Assembly: GCA_945900945.1 (NCBI GenBank)
Contig: CAMDKL010000055.1
Location: 1 to 35,389, forward strand
Length of the DNA: 35,389 nt
Direction of reading: 5' to 3'
Origin: Pirellula staleyi DSM 6068
GTDB taxonomy: Bacteria; Planctomycetota; Planctomycetia; Pirellulales; Pirellulaceae
The notes under the pieces were generated by a model. It was not told where the DNA came from, ran no database searches, and saw nothing but the letters and a program-made list of their open reading frames with translations. A program made the position numbers and the translations under genes. Of this stretch, positions 4,237 to 13,802 are shown in pieces. Within the stretch, counting starts at the first letter, position 1, and every line of letters begins with the position of its first letter.

Positions 4237-7200
4237 CTATCCGTCGAAACGGATCAATCGCATTAGCTCTTCGGCGCTCAACTTGCCAGTGAGCTCGGTG
4301 CCTTCCAGCAATCCGTCCGCCAAGTCCCGTTTTCTTGCATGAAGCTCGAGGATACGTTCTTCGATCGTTCCTCGACAAACGAAGCGATAAATCGTAACCG
4401 GGCGTTTTTGGCCCATGCGATGCGCACGGTCGGACGCTTGGTCTTCGACGGCCGGGTTCCACCACGGGTCCATATGTATCACATAGTCGGCGGCGGTAAG
4501 ATTCAATCCTGTACCACCCGCCTTGAGGCTGATCAAAAACACATCGCCCTGGCCCGACTGGAACGCATCGACTCGGACTTGCCGATCTTTAGCCGGCGTG
4601 CTCCCGTCAAGATATTGATAAGCGACCTTCTTGCGATCGAGTTCTGCTCGCAGGATCTCTAGATGACCAACGAACTGACTAAACACTAGCACTTTATGAC
4701 GATTTTCGATTAGCTCGTCGATCGTTTCCGAAAACTGAGTCAGCTTGGCGCTGGCTATTTGGCTGCCCTCGAGTACCAATTGCGGATGGCAACAGGCTCG
4801 TCGTAGCTTCATGATCTCGGCTAGCATTTGCAAATACTGCGATTCACCGCGTTTGGCCGTATCTTGAGCCTCGGCAAGTTTCTTCACGGCTCGCTGCCGG
4901 ATCGCTTCGTAGAGCGCTTTCTCGTCTTCACTCAACTCAATATGCACCGTGACTTCGGTCCGCGACGGCAGTTCATCCAGAACCTGGGTCTTGGTTCGTC
5001 GAAGAATAAAAGGTTGAATTAAGCGTTTCAAGGCTCCTTGCGTCGCTCGACATTGATCGCGTTCAATTGGGATCGCGAATTGCTTTTGAAATTGTTCGTG
5101 GGAACCTAACAAACCTGGATTAATAAAATGAAAGAGGTTCCAAACCTCTCCGAGATGATTTTCAAGAGGCGTTCCGGTCATGATGATCCGAAAGTCAGCT
5201 TGTAAGTTCATAACCGTCTGCGATCGTTTGGTTGCGAAATTCTTAATGGCTTGCGCTTCGTCGAGCAACAATGTGTGCCAAGGCTGTTTTTGAAAGCGTT
5301 CGGCTTCCGAATTGAGCAAACCGTAACTGCAGACCATGAGGTCGCGGGGGCCGAGATTGTTGAAGAAAGCGTCGCGATCTCCGCCTCCAAATTGCCTGAC
5401 ATTCAAGGTCGGTGCAAAGCGATTGGCTTCGCGTATCCAATTAAAGCAGACAGAGGTCGGTGCCACGACTAAAGCGGGACCATCTGCGGCTCGATGCAAA
5501 AGCAATGCCAATGCCTGGATCGTTTTGCCGAGCCCCATGTCGTCTGCTAGGCACGCGCCGGCCCCCCAGGCCGCCAACCTGCCCAGCCATTGGAATCCCT
5601 CCAATTGATAGTCTCTCAACTCGCCTTGAAACGTATCCGGCAAGGTTAGAGTCAGCGCATTGGAATCCTTCCATCGCTCAACGCATTTCTTCCAATGCGC
5701 GTCGGCGCGAATCGAAAAAACCTCGTTGATATCTTCCAGGGCTGCTATTCGAATACTCGGAAATCGCAGCTTGTCTTGACGACGTTCGGAAAACATTTTA
5801 AGTTGATTGAGCTTGCGCCGTAGTTCATCCGTCAACGCCAAAAATTGTCCATCGTCCAACGCAACAAACCGCAATGGACTAGATTCAATGAGCTCGATCA
5901 ATTTCATCATGTCGACCGTCAACCCCTGGTCGACCTGAAGCAAACCTGAGACCGCAAACCAATCTCTATCCTTCTTGATATGTAATTGCATCATCGCAGG
6001 CGATGCTTCCTTGGATACGCGAATGCTCTTTCCGTGAGGCCAGTAGACGGTCACCTGTTGCGAATCGACCAGCGGCTTCAGTTGCAGCAAGAACTCCAGC
6101 GACTCTTCGATAGAACCCAGTTCGAAGTCGAGTTGGATGCTAGTCTCTGACTCAAGGATTGGGCACCATTCGAAAATCTTGTGAAGGCACGCAAGCTCGT
6201 CCTTGAACGATCGCTTAGTCGACATGGTTTTGCCTTGGATCTCCGTCATGAGATTTTTGCTGCCAATGCCAGGACGGTAATACGGTCCATCCGCACCGAA
6301 CGGCTGTACATGCATCTGAATCGCCATTCCATCTCCTTTGCGGGAAAGATGCAAATGCGTGCGAGGATCCGCCTCAATTGCTTCGCCTGATGCCGCCATC
6401 CCGCTGATTTCCGAATGAATCGGTATCAGGGTTGCAATCGACTGGAGTGTTTCCACAACCGCCGGTAAACCTTGATCAGGCAACAGAAGCTCATTTCCAA
6501 TAATGCGATGTATTTCTCGATGCCGAGGCGAAAAGATGCATAACCCTACGCGATTCGGAGCCTCCGGAATGAACAGAACATCGCTTTCGTTGGGCACCGG
6601 CTCTAGGCAAATACGAATCATTCCCTTGTAACGCTGCACCAACATATTTGGCTCGCGTTTGACAATCTCGATCTGTTGATTCCGATCGGTTGCCGAGAAG
6701 ATCAGCGGATGACCGATCAACGCTTCGGCAGCGGGTCTTGTTTTAAACTCGTAAGTGGTTTCAGGATATCGATCATACCTGTCGAATTGCGATTTCGGCT
6801 GGAGTGTCAGAATGAGCGCACGGTCTTGATCGGTAAGGCACGCGAGGGGCGTTGCAGCCGTTTGACTTTCATAGAGTCTCTTGAGCGATACCCTTTGTCC
6901 AACCGTCCAGCCCAATTTGCTTTTCTTTTGGATAAACGGAACAAGCTTGAAATCGCTCACGCTCGACTGGAATTCCCAGACGAGACGCTCGTTGGAAACG
7001 TTTGTCGTAACGGTGTTGGATTCTACAAGTTTTCGAAGTGCGGAGAGCGGTCTAAGCCAAACCGGCTCTGCTTGAATCATTTCCAGCAACGAAGGCCGCT
7101 GACTAATCTCAAGCGCTAAGGCAACCTCTTCGGGCGTCGTCGCTGAGTTGATCGAGTTCGTCGGAACCGCGTTTAACAAGGCAAGTTGCTTTGTTGCTTC

Positions 7201-8418
7201 CGATTGTAGCCAATAGAAGCCTAGCGAACGATATTTACTTTCCATCTCTTGCAGGTCTTGCACCTTGACGGGGCAATTGGACTCAGGAACGAGCCAACTC
7301 CAAAGATAGAATGCGACCAAGTTTGTCAGGAGATTCGTTCTCATGGATACTCGATCAATTAGCCACACCGAGAACGTATTCGAGGATTGAATGCCTTCCT
7401 GGAATTTTATTGCGGACCTTAGCAGACTGCCCAGGTTGTCGTATTCATCAGGCCAGTCCTGTATCATGACGTCAGCAATGTCTGAAATTTTTTTGCGATT
7501 AACAGTCGACTTCTGAGAGAAATAGAGCAGAGCATGCATGACTCCCGGTAACTGATCGATCGCGATTTTCCGCCTACCTGTCGTCTTACGAATCGACTTG
7601 ATTGCGATTTCGAACTCGATCAAAGCCTGGCCCCAATTCCCGGCGAGCAAAGACTGGCAAGCTATCAGCTCCAGATACCTCCCGTTGGTCTTGCTCGCTA
7701 GTTCTTGCAAGGCCTTGGAATCTCCGGACGCCAAATAGACAGAACACAACATCGAGACTAGTGGCCCGTCTGCATCAGTTAGCTCAAAGGGAAAAGCCGC
7801 AGCTAACTGAACTACTTGTTTGTCTCCGAACCCAGATACATAGCTGTTTGACAATACATCCTTGAGATAGGAATTCTGGAGCGTCGCCGCTAAGCCACCG
7901 AAGATCTCCTGGTTGAACGGATTCAGTACGTTGCACGAATGCTCAGACCCTGCCAAATCAACTGGGGTTAGGAGTTTGGCCTTGCCAATCGCATCAACGT
8001 CATTCCTGTAGAATGCGATTCGCAAATCCCTTATGCGACGCCCCCAATATCCATAAGTTTGAAAACTCTGGTAAGAAACTCTGTCACTTTGAACGAAGGT
8101 AGCGTATGGTTCGAAAGTCTTGTCGCGAATGGAATCTTGGACGACATAGTCCTGTAGGTCTTTATGGACGACCATCCCAGCCATCTTGGGATCGAAGAGA
8201 AGTCCGTTGCTGATCAGAGAAGCAACAACGGCGTTTATGTCTTTGAACTGGAGGCAAAACTCCTTGGAAACCTGATTGTTCAGATGAGGAATCAGTTTTG
8301 GAAATTGGTGCCGCCCAATGGGTTCATGGTGGATGGACCAAAACTGCAACGTACGACGGGTTGTCTCTGGTAAAAGTCGATACTGTTCGATAAGCGGCGA
8401 ATTCAAATCCCACTCCAT
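4237..8418 (-). CDS. SNF2-family ATPase (DEAD/DEAH helicase superfamily 2)
   Basis: A 1393-residue protein. The C-terminal 450 residues are a complete SNF2 motor: LRDYQLEGFQWL (motif Q-like), DDMGLGKTIQ (Walker A, Lys965), VVAPTSVCFNWIRE (Ia), LLLDEAQAIKN (Walker B DEAQ, Asp1053), MTGTPLENHLGEVWNL (III), KVLVFSQFVGHLEIL (IV), ISLKAGGTGLNLTAADYV (V) and DQASDRAHRMGQKRPVTIYR (VI). Such bacterial proteins translocate on double-stranded DNA and, as in RapA, can remodel nucleoprotein complexes. The roughly 900-residue N-terminal region has no domain I can name with confidence; its first part looks helical and repeat-like, and SNF2_assoc-type or SWIM domains should be searched for. The start ATG at 8418 lacks a clear ribosome-binding site. 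No methylase or nuclease partner flanks it. Confidence 0.93.
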   Translation of the reverse strand: MEWDLNSPLIEQYRLLPETTRRTLQFWSIHHEPIGRHQFPKLIPHLNNQVSKEFCLQFKDINAVVASLISNGLLFDPKMAGMVVHKDLQDYVVQDSIRDKTFEPYATFVQSDRVSYQSFQTYGYWGRRIRDLRIAFYRNDVDAIGKAKLLTPVDLAGSEHSCNVLNPFNQEIFGGLAATLQNSYLKDVLSNSYVSGFGDKQVVQLAAAFPFELTDADGPLVSMLCSVYLASGDSKALQELASKTNGRYLELIACQSLLAGNWGQALIEFEIAIKSIRKTTGRRKIAIDQLPGVMHALLYFSQKSTVNRKKISDIADVMIQDWPDEYDNLGSLLRSAIKFQEGIQSSNTFSVWLIDRVSMRTNLLTNLVAFYLWSWLVPESNCPVKVQDLQEMESKYRSLGFYWLQSEATKQLALLNAVPTNSINSATTPEEVALALEISQRPSLLEMIQAEPVWLRPLSALRKLVESNTVTTNVSNERLVWEFQSSVSDFKLVPFIQKKSKLGWTVGQRVSLKRLYESQTAATPLACLTDQDRALILTLQPKSQFDRYDRYPETTYEFKTRPAAEALIGHPLIFSATDRNQQIEIVKREPNMLVQRYKGMIRICLEPVPNESDVLFIPEAPNRVGLCIFSPRHREIHRIIGNELLLPDQGLPAVVETLQSIATLIPIHSEISGMAASGEAIEADPRTHLHLSRKGDGMAIQMHVQPFGADGPYYRPGIGSKNLMTEIQGKTMSTKRSFKDELACLHKIFEWCPILESETSIQLDFELGSIEESLEFLLQLKPLVDSQQVTVYWPHGKSIRVSKEASPAMMQLHIKKDRDWFAVSGLLQVDQGLTVDMMKLIELIESSPLRFVALDDGQFLALTDELRRKLNQLKMFSERRQDKLRFPSIRIAALEDINEVFSIRADAHWKKCVERWKDSNALTLTLPDTFQGELRDYQLEGFQWLGRLAAWGAGACLADDMGLGKTIQALALLLHRAADGPALVVAPTSVCFNWIREANRFAPTLNVRQFGGGDRDAFFNNLGPRDLMVCSYGLLNSEAERFQKQPWHTLLLDEAQAIKNFATKRSQTVMNLQADFRIIMTGTPLENHLGEVWNLFHFINPGLLGSHEQFQKQFAIPIERDQCRATQGALKRLIQPFILRRTKTQVLDELPSRTEVTVHIELSEDEKALYEAIRQRAVKKLAEAQDTAKRGESQYLQMLAEIMKLRRACCHPQLVLEGSQIASAKLTQFSETIDELIENRHKVLVFSQFVGHLEILRAELDRKKVAYQYLDGSTPAKDRQVRVDAFQSGQGDVFLISLKAGGTGLNLTAADYVIHMDPWWNPAVEDQASDRAHRMGQKRPVTIYRFVCRGTIEERILELHARKRDLADGLLEGTELTGKLSAEELMRLIRFDG

Positions 8419-10960: not shown

Positions 10961-11848
10961 CTAATGAATAATCCGAGCTATCAAATGCCGGATGGCTGGT
11001 AAGGAAAGTGAATTACCAAGCAAATGCCATTGCCTTTGAATAGATAAAGTATCGGGCAAGTGAAAATTATCTTGAAAGCCGAGCAAACGAGCTACTTCGC
11101 GAGGAGAAAATCGCCGGAAACCGGATGGTGTTTCCAAATACGAGCCTGATCGCACGATGGCTTTGCCATAAGAGGACGCAAAGCAAGCGGTCATAGCCGA
11201 TTCGTTCGCCATAGAGACTCGATCCATCGCATCGAAATAACGATCGACGGTTTTCGTTTCGAGCCAGAGGGTTGCGTGCGTTTCGGGCGTAATGTTTTTG
11301 TCGACGATCTCTCTTAGCGATCTTGGCGCTAAAATCGGCTTTGGTATTTCGGGGAGGCTTTCTAATGATGCGATGCAATAGACGCGGGGTCTACGATTGG
11401 GCCAGCCGAGAGCTGACGGGCAAATCGTGTATGTATGTAGATGATAACCGACCTGCTGCCATCGATCATGCAAATGTTGATACGTTTGGGACGTTTCAAA
11501 ACCGATCACGTTCTCTATACAAACCAAAGGAGGACGGAGCGAGGCAACAACATGGATCAGATGCCGAATGGCATCGGAACGTGGGTCTTTTAGATCGCGC
11601 CGAGCGCCACGTTGGGTAAACGGAGTACAGGGAGGGCTCATCCACCAAAAGTCGGCACGGTGGCATGAGAACCATTCCAAGGGGAGACTAGCAATCTCTT
11701 TAACAGAGTAGCAGTGCTTGAAATTCGCCGAGTAAACTTCCCGTGCGCTCTGGTCGATGTCGATGGCTTCGACAATTTCAAGATCTGGAAATGCTGCCGC
11801 GAATCCCCCGATACCAGCAAAAAGTTCTAGGACTCGCACGTGAACCAT
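10961..11848 (-). CDS. Dnmt2-like cytosine-5 methyltransferase
   Basis: A 295-residue AdoMet-dependent C5-cytosine methyltransferase. Motif I is LELFAGIGGFAAAF (7-20), motif IV is WMSPPCTPFTQRG with catalytic Cys74, motif VI is IENVIGF (Glu112), motif VIII is NRRPRVYCIA, and motif X is LLGNSLSL (276-283). The text around these motifs follows eukaryotic Dnmt2/TRDMT1 rather than restriction-type enzymes: MSPPCxPFT, ENVxGFExSxT, SPTSLGxPNxRxR-like ICPSALGWPNRRPR, CFxxxYG (CFASSYGKA, 222-230), RRFSPREVARLLGF, and GNSL instead of GNAV. The protein is short because the target-recognition region is small, as in Dnmt2. Dnmt2 methylates C38 of tRNA-Asp in eukaryotes, and a Geobacter homologue is known to act on tRNA-Glu; RNA rather than DNA as substrate is my inference. 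No nuclease gene is adjacent. Confidence 0.88.
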   Translation of the reverse strand: MVHVRVLELFAGIGGFAAAFPDLEIVEAIDIDQSAREVYSANFKHCYSVKEIASLPLEWFSCHRADFWWMSPPCTPFTQRGARRDLKDPRSDAIRHLIHVVASLRPPLVCIENVIGFETSQTYQHLHDRWQQVGYHLHTYTICPSALGWPNRRPRVYCIASLESLPEIPKPILAPRSLREIVDKNITPETHATLWLETKTVDRYFDAMDRVSMANESAMTACFASSYGKAIVRSGSYLETPSGFRRFSPREVARLLGFQDNFHLPDTLSIQRQWHLLGNSLSLPAIRHLIARIIH

Positions 11849-11885: not shown

Positions 11886-11944
11886 ACTAACCCGACGCGT
11901 TAGCGATGGCTTGAAACTTTCCCTCGCTAACGCGTCGGGTTAGT
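11886..11944. repeat. Long perfect inverted repeat upstream of the methyltransferase
   Basis: Arms of 21 bp are perfectly complementary: ACTAACCCGACGCGTTAG... at 11886-11906 and its reverse complement at 11924-11944, with a 17-base spacer. Outside it, CTGATGAAAA (11875-11884) pairs with TTTTCATCAG (11976-11985), giving a nested outer stem. It lies between the DUF1080 stop and the methyltransferase start, both on the minus strand, so it may end the DUF1080 transcript or belong to a dispersed repeat family. The element at 19289-19312 shares the CTAACGC...GCGTTAG ends. Confidence 0.85.
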
Positions 11945-12751: not shown

Positions 12752-13699
12752 CTACCTTTCTGCCATAATGCTTCGACCACGTTCTTTGGCCACGATGATA
12801 TGGTCTAGAACACGGATACCGACGACATCACCTACTTGTACTAATCGATCCGTTACCGCCTTGTCTTCACGACTTGGGGTAGGATCGCCGGACGGGTGAT
12901 TGTGAACCAATAGAATAGCAGATGCGGAGTCGCGAATTGCGGCTCGGAAAACTTCTCTTGGGTGAACAAGACTCGCATCGAGGGTTCCAACCGTGATCAA
13001 ATGGGAGTTGATTGGCCCGTGTTGTGTGTCCAAGGTTACGATGTGAAATTCCTCTTGCTTGCCATCGATCGCAAGACGCCTAAAGACCCGCATGCAATAT
13101 CGAATCGCATCGTCAGAGCCTTGAATGCGGTCCGGCGGTCGCGGTTGCTGGTCTTGAATCAGGGCAACTCGCCGTCCAAGTTCAATGCCAGCCATGACTT
13201 GAGCGTAGCTGTCTTTTCTAATGGTTTTGCTAATATCTCGCAATTCCGCCAAGCTGGCGTCAGCCAATTGAGGGACGCGCTGGTCTGGGAATCGATTGGA
13301 AAGCTTTCGCCCAGCTTGGATTGCGGACTCGCCGACGACGCCTACCCGAATCAGGATTGCGATCAGTTGCGCATCGGTTAGTTTGGCTGCTCCGTCTCGC
13401 AATAGTTGTTCACGCGGTCGATCTTGTTCCGGTGATTGCTTGATTTGCTCACCGTAGACTTGGCTATCGATCCAGTTGTCCGGGGTGCATGAGGGGTTGC
13501 TGACCCACCGAAAAAACTCTTGCTTGTCTCTTTCTACGCGGCTGAGCAATCCGTCGCGTGTCAACTGATTTAAGACCTTGGTAACATAGGCAGCATTCGC
13601 ATCGCGACATACCTGCTTTGCCCCCTCCGACGAAAAATCAACTAGTTCGCGGATAGCGTAAAGAATGGACTTCAGTTTTCGTTTACGCTCGTCGCTCAT
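12752..13699 (-). CDS. radC: RadC/JAB-domain protein with N-terminal winged-helix-like extension
   Basis: A 315-residue protein from ATG 13699 (MSDERKRKLKS). The C-terminal two thirds are RadC-like: PREQLLRDGAAKLTDAQLIAILIRVG (helical start of RadC), then EVFRAAIRDSASAILLVHNH and PSGDPTPSREDK, which supply the JAB metal site (Glu249, His266, His268, Asp279). RadC proteins have been implicated in DNA metabolism but their biochemical role is unsettled. Residues 1 to about 75 (ILYAIRELVDFSSEGAKQVC, then VTKVLNQLTRDGLLSRVERD) look like a winged-helix DNA-binding domain, which ordinary RadC lacks. A TTG at 13783 would add 28 residues in the same frame, but that DNA contains REP-like text, so the ATG is preferred. 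Confidence 0.85.
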   Translation of the reverse strand: MSDERKRKLKSILYAIRELVDFSSEGAKQVCRDANAAYVTKVLNQLTRDGLLSRVERDKQEFFRWVSNPSCTPDNWIDSQVYGEQIKQSPEQDRPREQLLRDGAAKLTDAQLIAILIRVGVVGESAIQAGRKLSNRFPDQRVPQLADASLAELRDISKTIRKDSYAQVMAGIELGRRVALIQDQQPRPPDRIQGSDDAIRYCMRVFRRLAIDGKQEEFHIVTLDTQHGPINSHLITVGTLDASLVHPREVFRAAIRDSASAILLVHNHPSGDPTPSREDKAVTDRLVQVGDVVGIRVLDHIIVAKERGRSIMAER

Positions 13700-13802
13700 T
13701 TGCAGGAAGCCCTTTTTCGACAATTTCTTCGGTTTTTTATGAGCGAGGTAATGGAGCAACACGTAGGCTGACGTAGCCAACAAGGGTGGAAAACTGCTTG
13801 TT

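Follow-up and report, generated by a model that had tools for sequence, protein, structure and literature searches.

A divergent bacterial Dnmt2-like methyltransferase gene in a Pirellula genome whose tRNA-Asp lacks C38

The window analyzed here is a 35,389-nucleotide stretch of DNA from Pirellula staleyi DSM 6068 (assembly GCA_945900945.1, contig CAMDKL010000055.1, positions 1–35,389). It carries a gene for a Dnmt2-like cytosine-C5 methyltransferase (Table 1). The open reading frame (ORF) and every motif described for it in an earlier sequence-only reading are found letter for letter, and the planctomycete host proposed there is supported by its place near metagenome-assembled genomes (MAGs) titled Pirellula. 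A GTG at 11839 offers an alternative start, and the proteins of relatives begin at approximately codon 4. The true start may be this GTG, three codons further in.

The sole Pfam domain, PF00145 (7.7e-37), spans residues 5–294 and thus the whole protein. In a 37-row alignment, S71, P72, P73, and C74 of motif IV, E112, N113, and V114 of motif VI, R153 of the motif VIII region, and G278, N279, and S280 of motif X are invariant, while R155 is present in at least 90% of the rows. By a crude motif-to-motif measure, the target-recognition region comprises 89 residues, compared with 86–88 in two bacterial relatives and 106 in M.HhaI. Three chains of eukaryotic Dnmt2 have 99, 105, and 110, although a stretch is missing from the human row, whose true length is greater than measured. 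The region had been called very small, which holds in a modest sense. The genome (6.47 Mb, 313 contigs) has one full-length PF00145 match, the Dnmt2-like gene, and the GC content of the gene region (~0.49–0.50) equals that of its surroundings (0.46–0.52). A separate locus (L002, positions 125–253 of contig C154, near the contig end) holds an N-terminal 43-column piece of another C5 methylase, which may be decayed or cut by assembly.

Table 1. Positions of the Dnmt2-like gene, its motifs, and neighboring features in the window
Feature	Coordinates	Strand	Remarks
Dnmt2-like C5-methyltransferase gene	10961..11848	-	295 aa, ATG start
Motif IV SPPCTPFTQRG	11606..11638	-	Catalytic Cys74, codon 11627-11629
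Motif VI ENVIGFETSQT	11483..11515	-	Holds E112
Motif VIII region SALGWPNRRPR	11384..11416	-	Holds R153 and R155
CFASSYGKA	11159..11185	-	Place of the Dnmt2-diagnostic CFT motif; Ala third, Thr replaced
Motif IX RRFSPREVARLLGF	11075..11116	-	
Motif X LLGNSLS	11003..11023	-	GNS
SNF2-family helicase	4237..8418	-	1393 aa
Inverted repeat, AACCCGACGCGTTAGCGA arms	11889..11941		Perfect, 18 bp
RadC	12752..13783	-	

Among PDB sequences, five Dnmt2 entries from four species lead the matches to the protein (9.5e-39 to 3e-26, with human DNMT2 at ~1e-38), followed by M.HhaI at 3.8e-16. A profile of 11 same-genus proteins, including that of the window, gives 3.4e-59 to 7.5e-48 for Dnmt2 versus 5.8e-27 for M.HhaI, and a Dnmt2-like query from another planctomycete family returns the same order. 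The order is reversed for a control query, an ordinary methylase of a planctomycete genome (M.HhaI 5.8e-72 versus Dnmt2 1.7e-16). The AlphaFold (AF2) model has a predicted local distance difference test score (pLDDT) of 95.1, and Foldseek assigns its ranks 1–9 to Dnmt2, in line with the structure check suggested by the sequence-only reading. In VIA, Dnmt2 occupies ranks 1–4, yet M.HhaI (31.0) ties with ranks 4 and 6 (32.0 and 31.0). Dnmt2-like rows show SPPC and CF[TAG], whereas ordinary methylases show GPPCQ or FPCQ and no CF[TAG]. Motif X of M.HhaI reads FGNSV, so GNS alone is not diagnostic for Dnmt2.

The phylogenetic tree contains 59 rows (40 bacterial Dnmt2-like proteins, four eukaryotic Dnmt2, and 15 ordinary methylases; Geobacter is not included). 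The Dnmt2 clade of 44 rows has a support of 100/99 and excludes all 15 ordinary rows; within it, the eukaryotic rows have 99/95 and the bacterial rows 89/84. When four rows are dropped, namely two long branches plus the pair attached to one of these, support is 98/87 for the bacterial branch and 100/100 for the ordinary side. The window protein lies inside the Dnmt2 clade, and its grouping with ordinary methylases, the outcome that the sequence-only reading had set against its own proposal, is rejected (21 log units worse, p-AU 0.0094). Bacteria nested inside eukaryotes are weakly rejected (p 0.040 and 0.015, with four eukaryotic rows and Geobacter left out). From sequence, structure, and tree, we confidently assign the window protein to the Dnmt2 clade, within which it belongs to a divergent bacterial branch. 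Because it has CFA, we file it as a divergent Dnmt2-like branch and not as a canonical CFT Dnmt2.

A search of 40 genomes, the own one among them, gave matches in 20. The protein is Dnmt2-like in 12 of these, one of them partial, and all 12 belong to the 25 same-genus genomes, which include some incomplete assemblies. The matches in the other eight are weak (E 1e-11 or worse, 12 loci), and the seven loci read are all ordinary methylases. Inside one genus, the Dnmt2-like proteins are ~50% identical. A scan of 392 Planctomycetota genomes gave eight that pass 1e-30, four of them with a Dnmt2-like protein (own, G313, G058, and G231), while four loci in three of the remaining genomes (L142, L143, L144, and L146) are ordinary by motif; up to six candidates were scored per genome in the rows listed, so misses are possible.

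A single-protein scan of a contig collection found no relative, and a profile scan then gave 146, of which the best 80 were taken and 46 read. Dnmt2-like proteins make up 38 of these 46 (two partial), the other eight being of another kind. The titles of the 38 name Pirellula, Planctomycetota, Obscuribacterales/Melainabacteria, Cyanobacteria, Riflebacteria, Proteobacteria, and Actinobacteria, among others. Such titles can mislead: L039 ('Actinobacteria') and L063 ('Proteobacteria') lie in genomes of the same order as L041 ('Obscuribacterales'). The order of G435, which holds Obscuribacterales MAGs, includes 17 of the 21 genomes reached via relatives' loci; of 53 genomes of this order, 33 have a match at 1e-50 or better. 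A 2011 survey reported bacterial Dnmt2 only in Geobacter and suggested a transfer from eukaryotes (PMC3227630). Judged by their sequences, bacterial relatives are spread wider than that, and the expectation that bacterial Dnmt2 is rare needs revising. In the open-licence literature, Dnmt2 together with Planctomycetes appears in a single mention in RNase P work, and TRDMT1 together with both bacteria and Planctomycetes in none; among the matches listed, no work on Melainabacteria or Obscuribacter has Dnmt2, and we recognized no survey of bacterial Dnmt2 beyond that of 2011.

A phage or plasmid origin was considered and is without support. A scan of viral contigs found no relative. The matches in 205 phage and 110 plasmid records are all below 60% identity, the 20 rows listed being 24–26% identical and, where annotated, mostly named DNA methylases, and the GC content of the gene equals its surroundings.

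To read the candidate substrates, 150 of 319 tRNA candidates in the own genome were scored, giving 35 matches and 34 distinct genes, the last five read by eye. Three of the 34 have C38: Glu-TTC (ctttcac), Val-TAC (tttacac), and Gln-CTG (ctctgac). The anticodon loop of the own tRNA-Asp, ctgtcga, has A38 and lacks the base of the canonical Dnmt2 substrate, and both tRNA-Gly genes found are without C38. Of the four targets put forward beforehand, Asp and Gly are not supported by the genes found, while Glu-TTC and Val-TAC have C38. A tRNA-guanine transglycosylase of the queuosine pathway is present in the genome (474.7 bits), which answers the proposed queuosine check for this one gene.

The A38 of tRNA-Asp is shared by relatives. 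In 24 genomes, with none called in G013 (a fragment) and G027, A38 occurs in 22 of 23 rows, in gene-bearing and gene-free genomes alike, and C38 in G031. A38 is likewise present in all five additional tRNA-Asp genes read, which come from four gene-bearing genomes. Among 24 further gene-bearing genomes, tRNA-Asp has C38 in 15, G431 included, of which 14 were read with the first pattern and G446 with a looser one. It has A38 in G313, from the window's own family, G430 has an A38 gene as well as a C38 gene, and no tRNA-Asp was found in seven. An association of gene presence with tRNA-Asp C38 within the order was looked for and not found. Two tRNA arrays, L225 (G431) and L228 (G430), hold an extra tRNA-Asp, with A38 in G431 and C38 in G430, unlike the genome's other copy; these copies are perhaps phage-borne.

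For tRNA-Glu, C38 is present in 22 of 30 rows from relatives, and each of the 21 genomes that yielded a TTC gene has one such gene with C38. The exceptions are two more TTC copies in G025 with A38 and six CTC genes with G38; G001 and G014 gave no match. Since the own tRNA-Asp lacks C38, the enzyme probably works on another tRNA. The Geobacter enzyme is listed with tRNA-Glu (PMC5372726, PMC4860778). By kinship with such enzymes, the window protein is probably a tRNA position-38 methyltransferase, and tRNA-Glu, as reported for Geobacter, is our best present guess for its target. C38 of tRNA-Glu is, however, also common in relatives without Dnmt2.

A Dnmt2-clade enzyme could instead act on another C38 tRNA (Val-UAC or Gln-CUG), on a missed tRNA, or on the stem-loop of another RNA. 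Our tRNA list is incomplete, as fewer than half of the candidates were scored and no tRNA-Met or tRNA-Asn is among the genes read, and the targets listed for known Dnmt2s differ, with Asp, Glu, Gly, and Val all represented (PMC5372726). Against this, of the three C38 loops only that of Glu has C-A-C-G at positions 36–39, which can be compared with the CAm5CGCG context given for eukaryotic Dnmt2 targets (PMC6409601). We regard such a different RNA target as rather unlikely.

The tripeptide CFT is described as diagnostic for Dnmt2 (PMC3227630). Its third residue is T in 31 of the 40 bacterial rows of the tree (one being CIT) and A or G in the window protein and eight others. All 15 rows with tRNA-Asp C38 have T, while the 13 rows with A38 (G430 counted as such) include nine without T and four with it; for 12 rows no tRNA-Asp was read. 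Wherever tRNA-Asp was read, a third residue other than T therefore occurs only alongside A38. G006, outside the tree, combines CFT with A38. The tree needs at least three changes of this residue, and A38 lineages account for 27% of the Dnmt2 tree length; 0.27 cubed, ~0.02, gives a rough guide and does not amount to a formal test. The association is post hoc and phylogenetically confounded, involving one large clade and two long branches. It is suggestive of a link between the third residue and A38 of tRNA-Asp; the earlier idea that CFA bears on specificity gains a correlation with that confounding attached. The isoelectric point (pI) of the proteins does not differ between the groups in the direction that was expected.

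In the window, the gene is convergent to an aminotransferase gene and lies downstream of a DUF1080-type hydrolase and RadC. About 110 residues at the N-terminus of RadC fall outside its two Pfam domains, and the end of RadC overlaps the GTG-started hydrolase ORF by 29 bases. Just upstream of the Dnmt2-like gene lies the inverted repeat with AACCCGACGCGTTAGCGA arms. This sequence has 11 matches with at most one mismatch in the own genome, the two arms included, and the reversed control has none; we read the repeat as one of a family of dispersed palindromes or terminators. Rfam has no match in the window.

Some features of the gene and its neighborhood would fit a DNA cytosine methylase, orphan or linked to defense, with no more than a resemblance to Dnmt2. 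PF00145 takes its name from DNA methylases, NCBIfam TIGR00675 (dcm) scores 98.5 bits, just below its cut-off of 100.65, and the best PADLOC model is the type II methyltransferase (MTase_II, 2.4e-35), with DruM and DrmMII lower; 50 families match, and no model named for Dnmt2 is among the best 25. In addition, the SNF2-family helicase ~2.5 kb from the gene matches the PADLOC models DpdE (1.2e-191) and ZorD (3.5e-111). The ZorD model combines a helicase with an Mrr-like nuclease and is matched over its helicase part, and the two matches may reflect only a large SNF2 helicase. The other nine of ten window neighbors scanned have no PADLOC match and include no further Dpd or Zorya part, and 16 neighbors scanned with Pfam, not every ORF being covered, contain no endonuclease apart from RuvC. 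The phylogeny, the SPPC and CF[TAG] motifs, and the nine neighbors without a PADLOC match make a DNA methylase improbable.

Of ten neighbor proteins from relatives compared with PADLOC, nine match nothing and one, a TPR protein, matches over its TPR repeats. In five loci of the Pirellula branch (L027, L028, L031, L032, and L034), the gene stands between two shared families, in L027 a glycoside hydrolase before and a sulfatase after, and in L030 and L070 a VWA protein lies downstream instead. Ten of the 22 Obscuribacterales-branch loci examined have an RNA pseudouridine synthase family near the gene. In the four of these read for coordinates, the synthase gene is directly adjacent, and its proteins match TIGR00093 above the cut-off and RluE below it. 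This may be one inherited arrangement, as related genomes share synteny. In L037, the gene adjoins an Rsm22-like methyltransferase. L040 (7630–10041) encodes an 804-residue protein without a Pfam match, with relatives, some shorter, in 13 other Obscuribacterales Dnmt2 neighborhoods.

Four pairs drawn from five Pirellula relatives, three of these pairs being of the CFA type, give a ratio of nonsynonymous to synonymous substitution (dN/dS) of 0.10–0.19. Three of the pairs are built from the same three sequences, and in three dS is close to or greater than 1. Purifying selection continues in some relatives. A gene on its way out, jobless since tRNA-Asp lost C38 and with the T of CFT drifted, is very improbable: its scattered occurrence (in 12 of the 25 same-genus genomes, with incomplete assemblies among them), the variation among T, A, and G only in A38 lineages, and the ~50% identity inside one genus would fit, but C74, E112, and R153 are invariant and the dN/dS values are low.

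PF00145 enzymes generally attack C6 of a flipped-out cytosine with a cysteine and transfer the methyl group to C5. In the window protein, Cys74 would make this attack, E112 and R153/R155 would assist catalysis, and the methyl group would pass to C5 of the cytosine. By kinship, the substrate would be position 38 of a tRNA anticodon loop. As tRNA-Asp has A38 in the own genome, the likeliest target would be tRNA-Glu(UUC), in which a G comes after the loop CUUUCAC; tRNA-Val(UAC) and tRNA-Gln(CUG) would be weaker candidates. On balance, we favor an S-adenosylmethionine-dependent cytosine-C5 methyltransferase of the bacterial Dnmt2 branch that acts on tRNA position 38, most likely in tRNA-Glu(UUC).

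More tentatively, the Dnmt2 of bacteria (Planctomycetota, Obscuribacterales, and a few others) might be an ancient sister lineage to that of eukaryotes and not a recent gift from them. The Pirellula branch would then have lost an ancestral tRNA-Asp C38, kept the enzyme under purifying selection, and retargeted it to tRNA-Glu or another RNA, a shift that would have released the T of CFT to vary. An enzyme kept without its target base offers a natural experiment on the choice of tRNA by Dnmt2 and on the role of CFT, and the bacterial diversity is relevant to the question of a bacterial origin of Dnmt2 versus an export from eukaryotes.

Of the known systems, the eukaryotic Dnmt2/TRDMT1 enzymes compared are human (1g55/9hgm), Schizosaccharomyces pombe Pmt1 (6fdf), Spodoptera (4h0n), and Entamoeba histolytica EhMeth (3qv2). 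The window protein is 29–34% identical to them over the structural alignment. It differs in having CFA instead of CFT and a shorter target-recognition region, and its genome lacks the canonical target, C38 of tRNA-Asp. With M.HhaI and ordinary bacterial C5 DNA methylases it shares the PF00145 domain, the predicted chemistry, the overall fold, and, with M.HhaI, GNS; unlike them, it has SPPC in place of GPPCQ or FPCQ, carries CF[TAG], and stands on the opposite side of the 100/99 branch. The Dnmt2 of Geobacter sulfurreducens is likewise bacterial and is reported to act on tRNA-Glu (PMC5372726, PMC4860778); the window genome has a tRNA-Glu with C38.
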